From NCBI RefSeq assembly GCF_000422285.1, contig NZ_AULM01000034.1:1-41333 (forward strand): a stretch of 41,333 nucleotides of DNA, read 5' to 3'. A model generated the notes under the pieces. That model did no database searches and was not told the DNA's origin. It saw nothing but the letters and a program-made list of their open reading frames with translations. Positions 13,799 through 22,099 of this stretch are shown piece after piece; position 1 is the stretch's first letter; each line of letters starts with the position of its first letter. This DNA is from Desulfatiglans anilini DSM 4660. GTDB taxonomy: Bacteria > Desulfobacterota > DSM-4660 > Desulfatiglandales > Desulfatiglandaceae. Both the position numbers and the translations under genes were made by a program.

Positions 13799-15285
13799 TG
13801 ATACGGAAAATGCTTGCGTGTCTGCCGCTGGGGGCGCTTGTGTTCAACGGGTGCAGCCTGATGCCGGATTACAAACGGCCCGATGCCCCGATCCCGGGCG
13901 GGTGGAAGAGCGGACCCGCCTACCGGGAAGGCCTGCGGACGTCGGATGCGCCTTTGGCGGCGGATCTCGAGTGGCGCGCCTTTTTCACCGATGAGCGGAT
14001 GCGCCAGGTCATCGAACTCGGGCTTCAGAACAACCGGGATTTGCGGGCGGCCGCCCTCAACGTCGAACGGGCGCGGGCGCTTTACGGGATCCAGCGCGCC
14101 GAACTGCTGCCATGGGTCGGTGCGACGGGAAGCGGATACAAAGGAAGGGTCCCTGCGGATCTCTCGAGCAGCGGTACGCCCAGGACAACTGAGGAATACC
14201 GCGTGGATCTGGGCATCGCTTCCTGGGAAATCGATTTCTTCGGGCGCATCCGCAGCCTCGAGCAGCAAGCCCTCGAGACGTACTTCGCCACCGAGGAGGC
14301 GCGGCGGAGCGCCCGGATCCTTCTGATCTCGGAGATCTCAATCGCCTACCTGAGCCTCGCCACCGAACTGGAAAACCTTCGATTGGCCCAGTCCACGCTC
14401 GAGGCGCAGCAGGACAGCTACAACCTGATCAAACGGCGCTACGAGGTCGGCCTGGCGCCGAAGATCGACCTGCGCCAGGTGCAGACCCGCGTGGATTCCG
14501 CGCGGGTGGACATCGCCCTTTTCACGGAGCGGACGGCCCAGGTCGAAAACGCCCTCGACCTGCTGGTGGGAGACCTCGTTCCCGATGAACTGAAGCCGGA
14601 GGGGCTCAGCACGGTGGCCGCCCTGGGTGCGGTTTCCCCCGGGCTTTCTTCGGAGGTGCTGCTGGGCCGTCCGGACGTTCTTCAGGCGGAGAGGCTCCTC
14701 AGGGCTGCGAACGCCAATATCGGCGCGGCGCGCGCCGCCCTCTTCCCGCGGATCTCGCTCACCACGGCGGCCGGGACCGCGAGCGCAGAGCTCTCCGGAT
14801 TGTTCCGCTCCGGCTCCGGTGTGTGGAATGTCGCTCCGAGGGTGGATCTGCCGATCTTCTACCCCGGCCTCTGGTCCGCGCTCAAGGTGAGTCAAGTCGA
14901 TCGGGAGCTTGCCGTCACGCGCTACGAAAAGGCCATTCAGAATGCATTTCTGGAGGTGAACAATGCCCTGGCGGGCGAAGGGACCCTCGGGGACCGCATG
15001 AAGGCGCAGGAATCCCTGGTCGAGGCTACATCGGAGACCTATCAGCTGTCGAAGTCACGGTATGAAAAGGGGATCGACACTTACCTGAACGTGCTGGATG
15101 CCCAGCGTTCCCTTTACGCCGCACAGCAGGGCCTGATCACCATCCGTTTCGCACGGCTCGCGAATCAGGTGCGGCTTTATGCAGTGCTGGGTGGGGGAGG
15201 GGAGAACGCTGCCACCCCGCGCGATGCGGATGGACAGGTCCCCCAGCCCAGCACGTACGTATCAGGCAAGGCGGGGGAAAAATAG
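13795..15285 (+). CDS. Outer-membrane efflux lipoprotein, NodT/OprM family
   Basis: A 496-residue TolC-like outer-membrane factor completing the tripartite pump. It has a lipoprotein signal (MMIRKMLACLPLGALVFNGC, lipid-bearing Cys20) followed by SLMPDYKRPDAPIP, typical of the NodT group. Two OEP repeats follow: one around LGLQNNRDLRAAALNVERARALYGIQ and the second around LLGRPDVLQAERLLRAANANIGAARAALFP. The start overlaps the end of the pump gene by 4 bp. Only 6 bp separate its stop from the stop of the convergent aryl-CoA ligase gene, leaving no room for an independent terminator. Confidence 0.94.
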   Translation: MMIRKMLACLPLGALVFNGCSLMPDYKRPDAPIPGGWKSGPAYREGLRTSDAPLAADLEWRAFFTDERMRQVIELGLQNNRDLRAAALNVERARALYGIQRAELLPWVGATGSGYKGRVPADLSSSGTPRTTEEYRVDLGIASWEIDFFGRIRSLEQQALETYFATEEARRSARILLISEISIAYLSLATELENLRLAQSTLEAQQDSYNLIKRRYEVGLAPKIDLRQVQTRVDSARVDIALFTERTAQVENALDLLVGDLVPDELKPEGLSTVAALGAVSPGLSSEVLLGRPDVLQAERLLRAANANIGAARAALFPRISLTTAAGTASAELSGLFRSGSGVWNVAPRVDLPIFYPGLWSALKVSQVDRELAVTRYEKAIQNAFLEVNNALAGEGTLGDRMKAQESLVEATSETYQLSKSRYEKGIDTYLNVLDAQRSLYAAQQGLITIRFARLANQVRLYAVLGGGGENAATPRDADGQVPQPSTYVSGKAGEK

Positions 15286-15291
15286 CAGGGT

Positions 15292-16824
15292 TTAAGCAGC
15301 CTGCCGCTCGGGCATCCGCAGCTTGAAGCGCTGGATCTTTCCGGTGGCGGTCTTCGGGAGTTCGTCCGGCAGCATGATGTCCCAGGGGCACTTGAACCTC
15401 GGGAGTCTGCCGGCTGCGTAGTCGAGCAGTTCACGGCTGAGCCTGGGCTTGTCCGTGTCGGCGCCCGTGTACTGTGGTTCGAGAATGACATAGGCGAACG
15501 GCTTGATCAGCCCCTCGATCTCCTGTCCGACCACGGCGCACTCGTGAACAGCCTTGTGCTCCATGAGGACGTTTTCGATTTCGACGGGCGAGACCCAGAT
15601 TCCGCCGACCTTCAACATGTCGTCCCCACGCCCCTGGTAGGTGAAATAGCCTCCGACCTGGCTGTAGATGTCACCGGTCCTGAACCAGCCCCCTTCGAGC
15701 ATCTTCTCGGCGTTTTCTTCCGGCCTTTTCCAGTAGCCCGGTGTGATGCTGCGGCCCCTGATGAGCAGGTGCCCCGGCACGCCCTGCGGAACCTCTTTTC
15801 CCGAGAGGTCCACGATCTTTGCCTGGAATCCGGGGACGAGGCGTCCCGAGGTCCCTTCGAGGACATCATCCTGGAGGTTGGAGATGAAGATGTGCATCGC
15901 CTCGGTCGACCCGATCCCGTCGAGGATGGTGAGTCCTGTTTTTTCGCGCCATTTCCTCAAGACCTCGGGCGGAAGCGCCTCCCCGGCCGATGCGCAGAGC
16001 CTGATGGATTCGAACCGGATCTGGTCGATCTTTTTCAGGAGGGAGTTGTACTGGGTCGGTACGCCGAAAAAGATTGTCGGCTGCTGTTCCTGGATGATCT
16101 GCAACACGTTGTCAGGCGATGGCCGATCGGAGAGGAGGACGACGGGTGCGCCGTAGCGGAACGGGATCGCGAGGCTGTTTCCGAGCCCGTAGGCGAAAAA
16201 GAGCTTGCTCACCGAAAAGAGCTTGTCCTCTTCCGTGATGTGCAGGACGTTCCGGCCGTAGGCATTGGCGATGAACAGCAGATCGATGTGTTTGTGGGGC
16301 GTACCCTTGGGGCGTCCGGTGCTGCCCGAGCTGTAAAGCCAAAAGGCGATGTCGTCTTCATGGGCGGGATGGGCCTCGGCCTCGTCCGAGGCCTCCGAAA
16401 GCCATTCATCCAGCCCGTCGTCGGCGAAGAGGCGGTAGCAGAGATGGCGCGTTCCGGCGCAGGCCGCCTTGCTGGTCTTTTCCGTGACCAGAACGCGGGC
16501 CTCGCTGTTCTCGAGGAGGTACTCGTAGTCCGCCATGCCCAGCATGGTGTTGACCGCGACCGGCCAGGCGCCGTGCTTGATGCTGCCCAGGAAGGCATAG
16601 ATGAACATGGGCGAGTCGGGCAGATGGATCATGACGCGTTCGGTCGGTTTTACATTCAGCTTTTTGAGGACGTTCGCAAATCGGTTGACATTCTTCAGTA
16701 CGTCCCGGTAGGTGACGGTTTCTTCTCCGCAGTAAATCGCGACCTTATCCCCTCGTTCGGCGGCGTTCTCGTCCAGGAGCCGTGAGGCGATATTGAACGT
16801 GTCCTGTCTGATCTGCTCATTCAT
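15292..16824 (-). CDS. Benzoate-CoA-ligase-family acyl/aryl-CoA synthetase
   Basis: A 510-residue adenylate-forming enzyme activating a carboxylic acid, probably aromatic, to its CoA thioester using ATP. Motifs: the AMP-binding P-loop YSSGSTGRPKG, FGVPTQYNSLL, the adenine-site DGIGSTEAMHIF, the hinge region GWFRTGDIYSQVGGYFTYQGRGDDMLKVGG, and the catalytic Lys496 in TATGKIQRFKLR. Length and overall pattern fit benzoate-CoA ligases (BadA/BclA type), but hydroxy- or aminobenzoate or another acid is possible. The ATG at 16824 has GGGGG upstream; the in-frame extension to 16884 is rejected because it runs through a sigma-54 promoter. The gene faces away from the kinase/activator pair only in function: all three lie on the same strand, and the activator may control it. 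Confidence 0.88.
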   Translation of the reverse strand: MNEQIRQDTFNIASRLLDENAAERGDKVAIYCGEETVTYRDVLKNVNRFANVLKKLNVKPTERVMIHLPDSPMFIYAFLGSIKHGAWPVAVNTMLGMADYEYLLENSEARVLVTEKTSKAACAGTRHLCYRLFADDGLDEWLSEASDEAEAHPAHEDDIAFWLYSSGSTGRPKGTPHKHIDLLFIANAYGRNVLHITEEDKLFSVSKLFFAYGLGNSLAIPFRYGAPVVLLSDRPSPDNVLQIIQEQQPTIFFGVPTQYNSLLKKIDQIRFESIRLCASAGEALPPEVLRKWREKTGLTILDGIGSTEAMHIFISNLQDDVLEGTSGRLVPGFQAKIVDLSGKEVPQGVPGHLLIRGRSITPGYWKRPEENAEKMLEGGWFRTGDIYSQVGGYFTYQGRGDDMLKVGGIWVSPVEIENVLMEHKAVHECAVVGQEIEGLIKPFAYVILEPQYTGADTDKPRLSRELLDYAAGRLPRFKCPWDIMLPDELPKTATGKIQRFKLRMPERQAA

Positions 16825-16867
16825 GGCGTTACCCCCTTTTGATTTGAATGGTTTGGTAAGAAGGTAA

Positions 16868-16884
16868 CGCAAGGGGCATGCCAA
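16868..16884 (-). promoter_or_regulatory. Sigma-54 (RpoN) promoter of the aryl-CoA ligase gene
   Basis: On the minus strand the sequence reads TTGGCATGCCCCTTGCG. This matches the RpoN consensus YTGGCAYG-N4-TTGC with correct -24 GG and -12 GC spacing. Transcription would start near 16858, giving a leader of about 34 nt that includes the GGGGG ribosome-binding site. Confidence 0.75.
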
Positions 16885-16954
16885 AATGGAGGCTATGCGA
16901 AAAGATTATTAATATAAGTGCCTTACATTGTCGATACTGAACGGATAGAAAACA

Positions 16955-16991
16955 AAGCGCTTCGAAAAATCGAAAAGAATCGAAAGCGCTT
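16955..16991. promoter_or_regulatory. Candidate enhancer for a sigma-54 activator
   Basis: Two AAGCGCTT palindromes (16955-16962 and 16984-16991) have centres 29 bp apart. Between and overlapping them, TCGAAA occurs three times at about 8-10 bp spacing (near 16962, 16970 and 16980). The block lies roughly 70-125 bp upstream of the sigma-54 promoter, the usual position for upstream activating sequences. Confidence 0.45.
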
Positions 16992-17064
16992 TTAAAAATT
17001 GAAAACCGGTTGGCCCGCCTCCGGAACCCTCCTCGATATTTTCCGGATGACTTCTTCACCCGAT

Positions 17065-17080
17065 TGAAGCCGCCGCTTCA
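17065..17080 (-). terminator. Hairpin at the response-regulator stop codon
   Basis: TGAAGC-GGCG-GCTTCA is a perfect 6-bp stem with a 4-nt loop that includes the TGA stop. No T-run follows on the minus strand, so it is at best a weak terminator. Confidence 0.3.
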
Positions 17081-18463
17081 GCTCGAACGTCCGCGCCGGG
17101 ATTTCGACTCGATGCCGTAGAGCTTCATCCGCCTGCTCAGGGTGGGGCGGGAGATCCCGAGCTGTTCGCAGGCCTTGCCGTAATGCCAGTGGACCTCGTT
17201 CAGGACCCGCAGGATCCGCTCGCGCTCGGATTCGGCCGGCTGGTTTTCCGGAGCTTTTGGGGGCTCATCAGTTCCTTTTCCCGGATGGGTCTTATTCAGG
17301 AGGGGGGCGGTCACTGCGTCCGTGATGAGGTTCCCCTTGGTGAGAATTGCCGCTCTGGTGAGGATGTTTTCCAACTCCCGCACATTCCCCGGCCAGGAAT
17401 AGCGAATCATCCGCTGCATCGCGGCTTCTTCGACGCCCTCGATCCGGTGCTGCAGCTCGGTGCCGATACGTTTCAGAAGGTAGTCGACGATCATGGGGAT
17501 ATCGGCCTGACGATCCCTGAGGGGAGGGATCCGGACGGTGGCTACGCTCAACCGGTAGAAGAGGTCCTCCCTGAAGGCACCCTTGCGGACCATGCTGCGG
17601 AGGTTCCGGTTCGTTGCCGCGATGATCCGGGCCTTGAGCTGCAGGGGTTTTTCGCCGCCCACGCGCAGAAATTCCTTTTCCTGGAGGACTCGAAGGAGCT
17701 TTGCCTGCAGTTCGACCGGGATCTCGCCCACTTCGTCCAGGAAGAGGGTGCCGGCTTCGGCGATCTCGAACATCCCCTTCTTGGAGGAGACCGCGCCGGT
17801 GAAGGCGCCTTTTTCGTGGCCGAAAAGCTCGCTTTCGAGGAGGTTTTCGACGATGGCCGAGCAGTTGATCGCGACGAAGGGCTGGTCCTTCCAGGCGCTG
17901 TGAGAGTGGATGGCACGGGCGACCAACTCCTTGCCGGTCCCGGTTTCACCCTCGATCAGGACATTGACCCGGTTGGCGGACAAGACGCCGATCGTCTTGA
18001 AGATCTCGTTCATCTCCCTGGTCTTGCCGATGATCTCGCCCTTTTTGAATTCCTGGTCCCGGGGCCTTCCGGCGGGAGCCTGGCGCCTGCGCATCCTCGA
18101 CAGCTCGAGTGCTCTCTGGATGGCGTCTTCCAGTTCGTCGACATCGATGGGTTTGGGGATGTACTCGAAGGCGCCGGAGCGGATCGCCTGGATGGTGGTG
18201 CCCATGTCGTGAAAGGCGGTGATGATGATCACATAGGGGGGATTCTCTCCCTTCCGGAGTTCCTTCAGGATCTCCAGTCCGCTTCTGTCCGGCAGCCGCA
18301 CGTCCAGGATGACGACGTCGGGCTGCAGCGAGCGGGCCTTATCGATGCATTCGGTGCCGGTCACGGCGCAGGCGACATGGAATCCTTTGTCACGGAGATA
18401 GCCCTCCAGGAGTTCGAGCGAAGAGGGTTCATCGTCGACGATCAGCAGGGTTGGTTTGGCCAT
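17078..18463 (-). CDS. Sigma-54-dependent response regulator (NtrC/AtoC family)
   Basis: A 461-residue transcriptional activator of RpoN promoters. Receiver domain: residues 1-120, phosphorylatable Asp54 in DVVILDVRLPDRSG, with Thr82 and Lys104 at the usual switch positions. AAA+ domain: about 145-375, Walker A GETGTGKE (172-179), the sigma-54-contacting GAFTGA loop (219-224), Walker B TLFLDEV (239-245) and an arginine-finger region SWPGNVRELENIL. The C-terminal Fis-type HTH spans about residues 418-455 (HYGKACEQLGISRPTLSRRMKLYGI). The gene follows the histidine kinase by 13 bp, so they form a two-component pair. The nearest sigma-54 promoter is that of the adjacent aryl-CoA ligase, making it the likely target. 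Confidence 0.94.
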   Translation of the reverse strand: MAKPTLLIVDDEPSSLELLEGYLRDKGFHVACAVTGTECIDKARSLQPDVVILDVRLPDRSGLEILKELRKGENPPYVIIITAFHDMGTTIQAIRSGAFEYIPKPIDVDELEDAIQRALELSRMRRRQAPAGRPRDQEFKKGEIIGKTREMNEIFKTIGVLSANRVNVLIEGETGTGKELVARAIHSHSAWKDQPFVAINCSAIVENLLESELFGHEKGAFTGAVSSKKGMFEIAEAGTLFLDEVGEIPVELQAKLLRVLQEKEFLRVGGEKPLQLKARIIAATNRNLRSMVRKGAFREDLFYRLSVATVRIPPLRDRQADIPMIVDYLLKRIGTELQHRIEGVEEAAMQRMIRYSWPGNVRELENILTRAAILTKGNLITDAVTAPLLNKTHPGKGTDEPPKAPENQPAESERERILRVLNEVHWHYGKACEQLGISRPTLSRRMKLYGIESKSRRGRSS

Positions 18464-18476
18464 GGAAACATCATCC

Positions 18477-20015
18477 TCATGTTTCGATGTCGGAGCCCGC
18501 GGACGGTCCCGGCGAAATGGGGAACACCATGAAGAAACAGAGACCGCCTCCCTGCGCGGGGGAGGCGTGGATCGACGCCCCGTGGGCCTCGACGATGCGT
18601 TTGGTGTTGGCGAGCCCGAGGCCGGTGCCTTTCGTTTTCTTGCTGAAGAACGGGTCGAAGAGATAGGGCAGGTCTTCAGGGCTCACCCCGGGGCCATTGT
18701 CGCATATCGCCACCTCGACGGCGTTTTCTTTTCGCAGAAGCCGGACCGCGAGCTGAATGCGCCCCTCCGCCTCCACCGCTTCGACCGCGTTCAGGAGAAG
18801 GTTGATGATCGCCTGCTCCATCTTTTCCCGGTCGACGGCAAGGAGAGGGAGCGCCTTGCCGAATCGTTTGCGCACGTGAATCCGCTTTTCGTTGAGCTTG
18901 GCCTCGAGGACCTCGAGCGACATCTCGATCGCGTCGATGATGGAGGCGGGCGCAGAAGCCAAACGGAGGGGTTTGGCGAGGTCGAGCATGTCGCCCACGA
19001 TGGCTTCGAGGCGGGAGATCTGCTGGGCGAGGATCTCGAGCCTCCGCTGGTCCGTCGCGCCGAAGCCGGTGTTCTTCAGGATCATCTGGACGCTCATCTT
19101 GACGGATGACAAGGGGTTGCGGATCTCGTGGGCGAGGGATGTCGTCAGGTGGCCGATGCGTGCAAGGGCTTCCGCTTCCCGCACCCGCCGTTCGATTTCC
19201 ACCCGCTCCGCGATGTCCCGGGAGATGCCGATGGTCGCCGCCTCTCCCTCGTACAGTGCGAGCGTCACCGTGTTCTCGGTGGGCAGCTCCGTTCCGTTGC
19301 GGTGAAGCCGGTTGTAGACATACTGCTTGCCGTGCGATCTCCCCGGCGGTTGCCCTTCGTCGATCCACCGGATCTTCCCGAGCGATCCGGCTGCGACGAA
19401 GTCGGTGAACGGCCGCCCGAGCACATCCTTTTTAGGGTAGCCGTGCATGCTGCAAAACGCCTTGTTGGCGAAGAGGATCCTTCCCGCCCGGCTTACGAAA
19501 TACCCGTCCCGGATCTTTTCGACCAGCGTGCGGTACTTCGATTCGGATTCGGCCAACTGCCGGGTACGCTCGGCGACCTTGACCTCGAGCGTCTGGGCGT
19601 ACCTTTTGATCTCGGCGTTGTGGAGGGCCTGGAAATGATCACTGAATCGATGCAGGGTGTAGCTGAGGCAGTCGTTCAGACGGTGGATGGCCGGCAGCAG
19701 GTCCGGGGTTTCCAGTTCGGCGGCGAAAATGGGCAGGAGGATGGTCCGGTAGAGCTCGAAGGCCTTCTGGACCTCGGATACCGAAAACCCGGCTCTCGAG
19801 CGGATGTTGCCGATCCACTCAATGAAGGCGTCGATTTTCGAGTGATCGCCCGTGGTCAGGACGGCGTAGTTGGCATCCGTCACCGCCGGGATGGTCCTTA
19901 GGAGGTTCTCCTCGGGCAAGGCCGAATACGTGGGGCTCACGTCCCCATGGAGCCTTTCGACCCACTCGTGGATGATCCGATCCCGATGCCGGAGCAGGAT
20001 CTCGGAAAGATTCAT
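18477..20015 (-). CDS. PAS-domain sensor histidine kinase with RsbRD-like N-terminus
   Basis: A 512-residue kinase, probably phosphorylating the regulator encoded next to it. The N-terminal 130 residues (LSEILLRHRDRIIHEWVERL through LHRFSDHFQALHN) resemble the RsbRD N-terminal helical sensor domain. A short coiled coil (about 135-160) leads to a PAS domain (about 160-280, GYFVSRAGRILFANKAFCSMHGY). HisKA follows with phospho-acceptor His296 in SLAHEIRNPLSSVKMS, and then an HATPase_c domain with N-box LLNAVEAVE, G1 DNGPGVSPEDL and G2 GTGLGLANTKRIVE. No membrane helix is evident, so it is probably cytoplasmic and senses an internal signal. GGAGGG precedes the start. Its C-terminal end lies 13 bp from the regulator start. 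Confidence 0.93.
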   Translation of the reverse strand: MNLSEILLRHRDRIIHEWVERLHGDVSPTYSALPEENLLRTIPAVTDANYAVLTTGDHSKIDAFIEWIGNIRSRAGFSVSEVQKAFELYRTILLPIFAAELETPDLLPAIHRLNDCLSYTLHRFSDHFQALHNAEIKRYAQTLEVKVAERTRQLAESESKYRTLVEKIRDGYFVSRAGRILFANKAFCSMHGYPKKDVLGRPFTDFVAAGSLGKIRWIDEGQPPGRSHGKQYVYNRLHRNGTELPTENTVTLALYEGEAATIGISRDIAERVEIERRVREAEALARIGHLTTSLAHEIRNPLSSVKMSVQMILKNTGFGATDQRRLEILAQQISRLEAIVGDMLDLAKPLRLASAPASIIDAIEMSLEVLEAKLNEKRIHVRKRFGKALPLLAVDREKMEQAIINLLLNAVEAVEAEGRIQLAVRLLRKENAVEVAICDNGPGVSPEDLPYLFDPFFSKKTKGTGLGLANTKRIVEAHGASIHASPAQGGGLCFFMVFPISPGPSAGSDIET

Positions 20016-20067: not shown

Positions 20068-21549
20068 TCATCCCCTGCCGACCATCTCGGTGATCCGCCT
20101 CAGCCTCTCTTGCGTTTCCAGGGTTGTCATGCCCGGCGAAAGGCGCCATCCCCAGTTCCCGCCGTTCAGGCCCGGGTTGTTCATGCGGGCCTCCTGCCCG
20201 AGCCCCAGCAGATCCTGCACGGGGACGATGACCATGCCGGCCGCGGAGCGCATCAGGAGCCGGATCAGTTCCCAGTGAAGCTCCTCGACGGGCACCTGCC
20301 GCCCGATGTAGGCAAAGATCCGCTCCTTGTCCTCCTGCGAGGTCTCGTTCTCGAACCAGCCCCGGATGGTGTTGTTGTCGTGCGTCCCCGTGTAGGCGAC
20401 GCAGTTTACGGGCAGGTTGTGCGGAATATACGGGTTGGCCGGCATGTCCGGACCGAAGGCGAAGAGGAGGACCTTCATGCCGGGGAAACCGAACCGCGCC
20501 ACGACCTCGCGGACATCCGCGGTGATGAGGCCCAGATCCTCTGCAAGCACCGGAAGGGCCGGGAAGCGTCGGAACAGCGTAGTGAAGAAGTCGAGGGCGG
20601 GGGCCTCGACCCACCGGCCGTTGATTGCGTTCGGCTCCGAGGCGGGCACCTCCCAATAGGCGACCAACCCCCTGAAGTGGTCGATCCGCACGAAGTCGAA
20701 GAGCTCGCGGTTGCGGGCGAACCGTTCGATCCACCAGTCGTAGCTCCTTTCCTGAAGGACCGCCCAGTTGTACACCGGGTTGCCCCACAGCTGCCCGGTC
20801 CGGCTGAAGTAGTCCGGCGGAACCCCGGCCACGACCTCCGGCCGCCTCTCGTGGTCGAGCTTGAACAGGTCCGGGTGGGTCCAGACATCGGCGCTGTCGT
20901 AAGTGACGTAGATGGGGATGTCGCCGAAGATCAGGATCCCCTTCCGGTTGCAATAACGCTTCAGGGCGGACCACTGCGTGTAGAAGAGATACTGAAGGAA
21001 TTTCTCCTTGCGGACGCGCCGGCGATGGTCGTGCCTCGCCTGGTCGATGGCAGCGGGTTCGCGGTCCCGCAGATCGGATGGCCAATCCCTCCAGACCGCG
21101 CCGTTGTATCGTGATTTGAGGGCTTTGAACAGCGCGTAGTCATCCAGCCAGCCGGCCTGGGCATCGCAGAACTGCCGAAAGGCGGGGTCCCGCTCCGGGT
21201 CGAACCGCTCGAAGGCCCGTTCGAACAGCCCTTCTTTGAAGGCGATCACCGCGGCGAAGTCCACCTGATCCTGTCGAAGGGGCGGCAGCGGACGGAGGTC
21301 GGCCTCGTCCAGCAGCTCGGCGCGCACCAGCAGCTCGGGGCTGATCAGGAGGGGATTGGCGGCAAAGGCCGAATCGCTGTGGTAAGGGGATTCTCCGGTG
21401 GGGTTCAGGGGCAGGATCTGCCAGACGGATTGTCTGGCGCCGGCCAGAAAGTCCGCGAAACGGTAGGCCTCGGGGCCGAGGTCCCCAATGCCGAAGGGCG
21501 ACGGCAGGGAAGTGATATGCAGAAGAATGCCGCTGCTTCGAATGTTCAT
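20068..21549 (-). CDS. malQ: 4-alpha-glucanotransferase (MalQ, GH77)
   Basis: A 493-residue cytoplasmic enzyme that transfers alpha-1,4-glucan segments between maltodextrins, in glycogen or maltose metabolism. It begins SSGILLHITSLPSPFGIGDLGPEAYRFADFL, typical of bacterial and plant amylomaltases, and carries WQILPLNPTG, GDIPIYVTYDSADVW and FVRIDHFRGLVAYWEVP (nucleophile Asp). The acid/base Glu is in LAEDLGLITADV and the third carboxylate in GTHDNNTIRGW. I selected ATG 21549; an upstream extension to 21741 lacks homology. It precedes the kinase gene by 52 bp on the same strand, so it may share a transcript with it, though no functional link is apparent. Confidence 0.94.
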   Translation of the reverse strand: MNIRSSGILLHITSLPSPFGIGDLGPEAYRFADFLAGARQSVWQILPLNPTGESPYHSDSAFAANPLLISPELLVRAELLDEADLRPLPPLRQDQVDFAAVIAFKEGLFERAFERFDPERDPAFRQFCDAQAGWLDDYALFKALKSRYNGAVWRDWPSDLRDREPAAIDQARHDHRRRVRKEKFLQYLFYTQWSALKRYCNRKGILIFGDIPIYVTYDSADVWTHPDLFKLDHERRPEVVAGVPPDYFSRTGQLWGNPVYNWAVLQERSYDWWIERFARNRELFDFVRIDHFRGLVAYWEVPASEPNAINGRWVEAPALDFFTTLFRRFPALPVLAEDLGLITADVREVVARFGFPGMKVLLFAFGPDMPANPYIPHNLPVNCVAYTGTHDNNTIRGWFENETSQEDKERIFAYIGRQVPVEELHWELIRLLMRSAAGMVIVPVQDLLGLGQEARMNNPGLNGGNWGWRLSPGMTTLETQERLRRITEMVGRG

Positions 21550-22099
21550 CGATGATGCCCCGTTCGTGTTGTTGGTTGTCGTGGTTTCAGGGCGGTGGAA
21601 GGCAGACGCTCTGCCCCGTACCGCCCAGGGCGGCGTTTTCCGCTCGCGCGCGGCCCCCGGGCTTCGGCGTTGCCTGTCCCCATGCTGCCGACCGCACGCG
21701 ACCTGCGAGCCATGGGCTTTGCATGGGAGTCTGCGCGTCAAGGATCATATCCGGAGCGAACGTCGTCGCGACGGATGCGCGCTAAGGGATCGGAAACCGG
21801 GTCCTACCGGGAAATCATTTCCGGATGGATATTAACTAGCGGACATAAACGGCTGATGCAACCTAATTTCTCGCTTCAAGGGAAGAACCTTCGATGTGCA
21901 GGGGGCGCCGGAAGGATTCCATGCAGGCACGCCGCAGATCTTCGATGCCCGGGAGCATGCACCGCGCCGGGATTCTCAGACTCCCCTTGCAGGATGAGCG
22001 CCGGCGTTGTACCTTGGTCGGCGGACAGGACCCTTTGCAGAGGGGCTTTTTTCCATCGATGCCGCCTTTGCGTCGTCCGAGAAAGGAAACAATCGACTG
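21550..22099. other. Intergenic region between divergent malQ and the DUF89 gene
   Basis: I see no reliable gene. It contains a 10-bp palindrome CGTCGCGACG (about 21764-21773) and the foldback-element fragment at 21786-21832. An AT-richer patch follows (21826-21880), a reasonable place for promoters. Candidate ORFs crossing it are GC-driven artefacts. Confidence 0.45.
21786..21832 (-). repeat. Fragment of the dispersed foldback element (copy E)
   Basis: Read on the minus strand, it matches the roughly 35-bp 5-prime extension of copies C and D (CCATCCGGAAATGATTTCCC, then CGGTAGGACCC). It continues into the first bases of the core (GTTTCCGATCC) before similarity stops. It is either a truncated copy or a solitary module. 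Confidence 0.65.

Follow-up and report, generated by a model that had tools for sequence, protein, structure and literature searches.

A near-consensus sigma-54 promoter precedes a single aryl-CoA ligase gene of Desulfatiglans anilini DSM 4660, and the ligase is very probably switched on from this promoter by the histidine kinase and NtrC-type response regulator encoded next to it. Since similar kinase-regulator pairs with the same type of promoter recur across the phylum, we regard this switch as a well-supported case of control of an already known type, and not of a new one; of more interest among our results are the pair as it occurs across the phylum and the enhancer motif that goes with it. 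The region discussed is part of a stretch of 41,333 nucleotides, analysed as a whole and referred to here as the window, and its relevant features, all on the minus strand, are the following:

15292 to 16824, minus: benzoate-CoA-ligase-family aryl-CoA ligase, 510 amino acids (family profile and domains)
16832 to 16839, minus: ribosome-binding site AAAGGGGG (by eye)
16857, minus: predicted transcription start (promoter geometry, 12 bases after the C of the -12 GC)
16868 to 16884, minus: sigma-54 promoter TTGGCATGCCCCTTGCG, -24 TTGGCAT and -12 TTGC (pattern match, genome-wide enrichment and conservation in the congener)
16905 to 16934, minus: weak sigma-70-like match TCGACA-18-AATAAT, a possible alternative promoter (10 of 12 bases)
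16954 to 16964, minus: proximal candidate upstream activator site (UAS) GAAGCGCTTTG, starting 81 bases upstream of the -24 TGG (counted by eye)
16982 to 16993, minus: distal candidate UAS AAAAGCGCTTTC, starting 110 bases upstream of the -24 TGG
17078 to 18463, minus: NtrC-type response regulator with receiver, AAA+ domain with GAFTGA and Fis-type HTH (domain search)
18477 to 20015, minus: cytoplasmic RsbRD_N-PAS histidine kinase (domain search and hydropathy)
20068 to 21741, minus: 4-alpha-glucanotransferase (malQ), the upstream neighbour on the same strand, in the same position in the congener

The first-pass annotation had proposed a near-consensus sigma-54 promoter at 16868-16884, about 44 bp before the ligase, and both the element and its distance hold up. 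The GG at -25/-24 (16882/16881) and the GC at -13/-12 (16870/16869) are correctly spaced, 10 bases apart, and the 3' end of TTGGCATGCCCCTTGCG lies 44 bases from the ATG of the ligase at 16824. TTGGCATGCCCCTTGCG matches TGGCAYN5TTGC exactly, its sole deviation from TGGCAYN5TTGCW being the final base, which is G instead of W. The shorter pattern has one occurrence in the window, where shuffled sequence predicts 0.16, and 43 in the 4.67-Mb host genome, where a reversed control pattern occurs 5 times; its matches in this genome are therefore well above chance. From these rates, the probability of a chance match on the sense strand of the 250-base intergenic stretch between regulator and ligase is approximately 1e-4 to 5e-4. 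A looser pattern with two mismatches showed no clear enrichment in the window (18 vs. 14.3); consequently, the promoter claim depends on the near-exact match, and the stricter pattern with its genome-wide control was used. A rough sorting of the genome-wide matches into coding and upstream positions, which covered one orientation only and 15 of 30 loci (4 upstream, 5 inside, 6 unclear), was set aside because antisense open frames blur the assignment. The host genome contains rpoN (a single match to PF04552, 211 bits). The predicted start at 16857 would leave a leader of 33 nucleotides. The two arms of a 13-base inverted repeat, 85% complementary, lie at 16826-16838, in the region of the ribosome-binding site, and at 16858-16870, in the -12 region.

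Upstream of the promoter we found two palindromes, GAAGCGCTTTG and AAAAGCGCTTTC, that are absent from the first-pass annotation and that we place as candidate activator (enhancer) sites. Counted from the predicted start, their centres fall at about -101 and -130, and two AAGCGCTT copies at a distance of 10-40 bases occur only at this locus in the host genome. Their sequence, position and conservation would be compatible with activator sites approximately 80-200 bases upstream. Related sites at two other loci of the phylum (L120 and L187) share the -81 start position of GAAGCGCTTTG. In the congener (G001), the order malQ, kinase, regulator, ligase and efflux genes is identical; a different gene context that had been considered for G001 was wrong, as only the stretch from the regulator stop up to the enhancers differs. 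This stretch is replaced in G001, whereas the 188-base block that runs from just before the distal UAS to the ATG differs from the window by one substitution, in the promoter spacer. Of the ligase third codon positions, 54 out of 511 (10.6%) differ between the two species, and at this rate the probability of at most one change in 188 bases is about 2e-8 (0.002 at the rate of the whole ligase gene). This bears on the possibility that the sigma-54-like sequence has no role, the ligase being transcribed instead either from a promoter of the sigma-70 type or by read-through of the operon that encodes kinase and regulator. Such an arrangement could make use of the one sigma-70-like match at 16934-16905, which is positioned between the enhancers and the sigma-54 promoter, or of the location of all genes from malQ through the ligase on the same strand with no terminator-like site found in the gap between regulator and ligase. 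However, the sigma-70-like match does not exceed what chance would produce (1 vs. 0.4 in shuffled sequences), the sigma-54 site and enhancer block are conserved next to sequence that has been replaced, and the same layout recurs across the phylum. We consider transcription independent of the sigma-54 site, therefore, to be improbable.

The proteins encoded by the two genes upstream correspond to what the first-pass annotation had described. The regulator is of the NtrC type, its GAFTGA is intact and Walker A is present (both by eye), and the kinase consists of RsbRD_N, PAS, HisKA and HATPase_c domains without a transmembrane-like stretch (highest hydropathy over 19 residues, 1.3). In the mechanism that we propose, the kinase would respond to a signal in the cytoplasm, most probably an aromatic acid, a related organic acid or the CoA ester of such an acid, and would phosphorylate the regulator. 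The phosphorylated regulator is predicted to bind the two AAGCGCTT palindromes, which lie approximately 100 and 130 bases ahead of the start, and to loop to the RpoN-RNA polymerase at 16868-16884, where its GAFTGA ATPase would open the promoter and turn on the single ligase gene when substrate is present. The end of the ligase gene at 15292 faces that of a convergent efflux gene at 15285 and the ligase is, therefore, a single-gene unit; malQ is probably not part of the switch. The core of this mechanism is likely right. Points that weigh against it, detailed below, are the altered -12 element at two orthologous ligase loci, the position of the regulator in G402, the deviation of the window palindromes from the motif of the wider family, the 13 loci without a sense site after the regulator and the finding that most of the ligases of 43-52% identity in our set do not adjoin the pair; the weak sigma-70-like match is another. 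The mechanism would represent a specific control circuit for the activation of aromatic acids in an anaerobe, in whose group few such regulators have been characterised.

Matches to the kinase at an E value of 1e-90 or better are present in 49 of the 395 sampled genomes of the phylum. We compiled 52 loci, comprising the window, the congener, 10 loci from an order-level search (the paralogues of both species among them) and 40 loci from the 58 rows of the kinase search; the other 18 rows were either already in the set (8) or left out of the count (10). A complete regulator and sufficient downstream DNA were available for 46 of them (dropped: L082, L085, L124, L133, L135 and L147). Among these 46 loci, which were chosen mostly by kinase score and thus non-randomly, with related genomes counted separately, 33 have a sense sigma-54 site (at most one mismatch) within 450 bases after the regulator (shuffles: mean 0.32, maximum 4), and 22 have an exact match, compared to 0.045 in shuffles. 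Antisense sites were found in none of the 46 over the same distance. The remaining 13 loci have no sense site within one mismatch after the regulator, and four of these possess an exact sigma-54 site divergently upstream of the kinase instead. Upstream of the sigma-54 site, the motif GAAAN5TTTC occurs in 21 of the 33 loci (27 sites; shuffles: mean 0.61, maximum 3), a count that includes the loci L078-L083 in which the motif was first spotted by eye before it was tested. Where it occurs singly it starts at -97 to -111 in 9 out of 15 cases, a range that takes in the -110 start of AAAAGCGCTTTC, and paired sites lie 20-21 bases apart. It is missing in 12 of the 33 loci, including the window and G001, whose palindromes do not match this motif. 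The usual genes downstream of the pair encode a LIV-type ABC transporter and an acyl-CoA ligase, although in some loci a gene resembling 2,3-dihydroxybenzoate (DHB)-AMP ligase takes the place of these targets. In a limited search of the open literature, including papers on sigma-54 regulons, we found this kinase family nowhere described in connection with LIV transporters.

The ligase of the window scores 494.9 bits against the benzoate-CoA ligase family TIGR02262, which passes the cut-off of 375.25, and its best matches among solved structures are benzoate- and anthranilate-CoA ligases. It carries the motif TEAMHIF, compared to TEMLHIF in solved benzoate-CoA ligases and TENFHIF in anthranilate-CoA ligase, in a stretch that we take to line the substrate pocket. 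To judge from these similarities, it is probably an activator of aromatic acids. The first-pass annotation had predicted a dedicated RpoN-controlled two-component switch for aromatic acid activation; the switch is strongly supported by the comparison, and an aromatic nature of substrate and inducer is suggested by the family of the ligase. The switch may be real while its signal and substrate are not aromatic but, for instance, an aliphatic acid with branches or a ring, or a form of stress perceived through RsbRD_N. The usual targets of the family, i.e., LIV-type transporters and ligases, of which the one ligase scored against NCBIfam resembles long-chain fatty-acid CoA ligases, are in line with this option, as is the name RsbRD_N, which derives from stressosome proteins. 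The score of the window ligase above the TIGR02262 cut-off and its closest solved structures point the other way, and we regard a non-aromatic signal as possible but doubtful. It concerns the signal only and is compatible with the mechanism outlined above. Elsewhere in the host genome (contig 57, L065, 6331-9698), two tandem ligases occur that are approximately 42% identical to that of the window; the first, which was scored, lies above the TIGR02262 cut-off, and the two resemble two benzoate-CoA ligase genes mentioned in PMC7500099.

A gene of the benzoate-CoA ligase family directly follows the pair in seven genomes (the window, G001, G341, G321, G240, G369 and G199); in an eighth, G402 (L147), the ligase follows the kinase alone and the regulator is not located between the two. 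Six of these eight ligase-linked genomes possess a sigma-54 site with at most one mismatch. In G341 (L120) and G321 (L187), which belong to one genus, the -24 element of the ligase promoter is intact and the -12 GC is replaced by GA. Ligases at least 60% identical to that of the window were encountered in 6 of the 395 sampled genomes of the phylum, and in these the kinase is adjacent in all five that can be judged and the regulator in four of the five, the contig of G160 starting inside the ligase. Among 17 loci with ligases of 43-52% identity (L190-L206), the pair adjoins only one (G199, L202); G240 and G369, retrieved by the kinase search, add two more pair-linked ligases. No promoter count was drawn for the 17 ligases because the scan, which began 300 bases upstream of the start of the open frame and ended 100 bases downstream of it, missed the exact site of L202. 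In a phylogenetic tree, the pairs of the window, G001 and G341 group in a single clade, with a support of 1.0, to which the pairs of G240 and G369 do not belong; the association of the pair with genes of the benzoate-CoA ligase family has, therefore, probably arisen more than once.

The recognition helix of the regulator contains PTLR in nearly all relatives for which its sequence is available, in forms such as SLPTLRSK and SRPTLRQK, and PSLR in two. The arginine of PTLR would be expected to contact DNA, as in Fis-type helices. The regulators of the window and G001 have PTLS and those of G341 and G321 PTLN, and the enhancers at these loci also deviate from GAAAN5TTTC. This fits a joint change of regulator helix and enhancer, as far as can be read from the sequences, but the correlation is incomplete since some relatives with PTLR also lack GAAAN5TTTC. 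It is of importance for a further explanation, in which the sigma-54 promoter is driven by another enhancer-binding protein and the neighbouring pair controls something else. Cross-regulation of this kind would suit the presence of a paralogous pair (38% kinase identity) beside another ligase in the host genome and the dissimilarity of the window palindromes to the motif of the family. However, pair and ligase also adjoin each other in the congener, G341 and G321, and the change to PTLS or PTLN in the branch of the window is what is expected if the regulator itself reads the altered sites. Control by a different activator thus seems unlikely to us, and we favour the adjacent regulator. In a wider reading, on which our own judgement is evenly balanced, the window would represent one branch of a phylum-wide, undescribed family of cytoplasmic RsbRD_N-PAS kinases and NtrC-type regulators, in which the regulator reads a shared GAAAN5TTTC enhancer (single at about -110 or in tandem 20-21 bases apart) and fires an adjacent sigma-54 promoter of genes that take up organic acids and activate them with CoA; in the branch with the aryl-CoA ligase, the target would have been exchanged and helix (PTLR to PTLS/PTLN) and enhancer changed together. 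Such a recurring module of kinase, regulator, enhancer and promoter could be used to assign targets, and perhaps inducers, in many uncultured genomes of the phylum.

The first-pass annotation contrasted this switch with BzdR- or BadR-type control of benzoate-CoA ligase genes, a comparison that is incomplete as it overlooked BamVW of Geobacter. A passage in PMC4424350 names BzdR/BoxR, BadR/BadM and BgeR, which control anaerobic benzoate genes and, unlike the pair described here, are not presented there as two-component systems; it also names BamVW, a two-component system for anaerobic benzoate degradation in Geobacter described in 2010. For Geotalea daltonii, the title of a 2025 paper connects sigma 54 and bamVW with benzoate-CoA ligase. 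Control of such a ligase by RpoN through a two-component system thus appears to have been reported already. To judge from its description, BamVW/bamY of Geobacter metallireducens and Geotalea daltonii, a two-component system of obligate anaerobes for which control of anaerobic benzoate breakdown has been reported, would be among the closest known systems; our pair adjoins a single ligase gene. The architecture of the regulator is that of the AtoSC/ZraSR type, and the best NCBIfam matches are AtoC (451 bits, regulator) and AtoS (241 bits, kinase), although these scores are under the equivalog cut-offs of 714 and 646 and the kinase differs in having RsbRD_N and no transmembrane-like stretch. The paralogous pair of the host genome (contig 4, L087), with a kinase 38% identical to that of the window, has the same kinase-regulator order; an exact sigma-54 site, TGGCACAGCTTTTGCT (8216, minus), precedes a gene for an adenylate-forming enzyme that is divergent from the pair and resembles 2,3-dihydroxybenzoate-AMP ligase (570 bits, below the cut-off of 723.55).

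At six loci of the wider family (L079, L080, L081, L083, L136 and L143), a stand-alone open reading frame of approximately 49-63 residues that resembles a Fis-type HTH directly follows the sigma-54-like site and precedes the transporter genes, and L078 contains an apparent decayed copy of it. Two successive sigma-54-like sites follow the regulator at L125, L127, L128, L130, L136 and L141, the first 5-90 bases past the regulator stop and the second near the start of the frame for the transporter binding protein.
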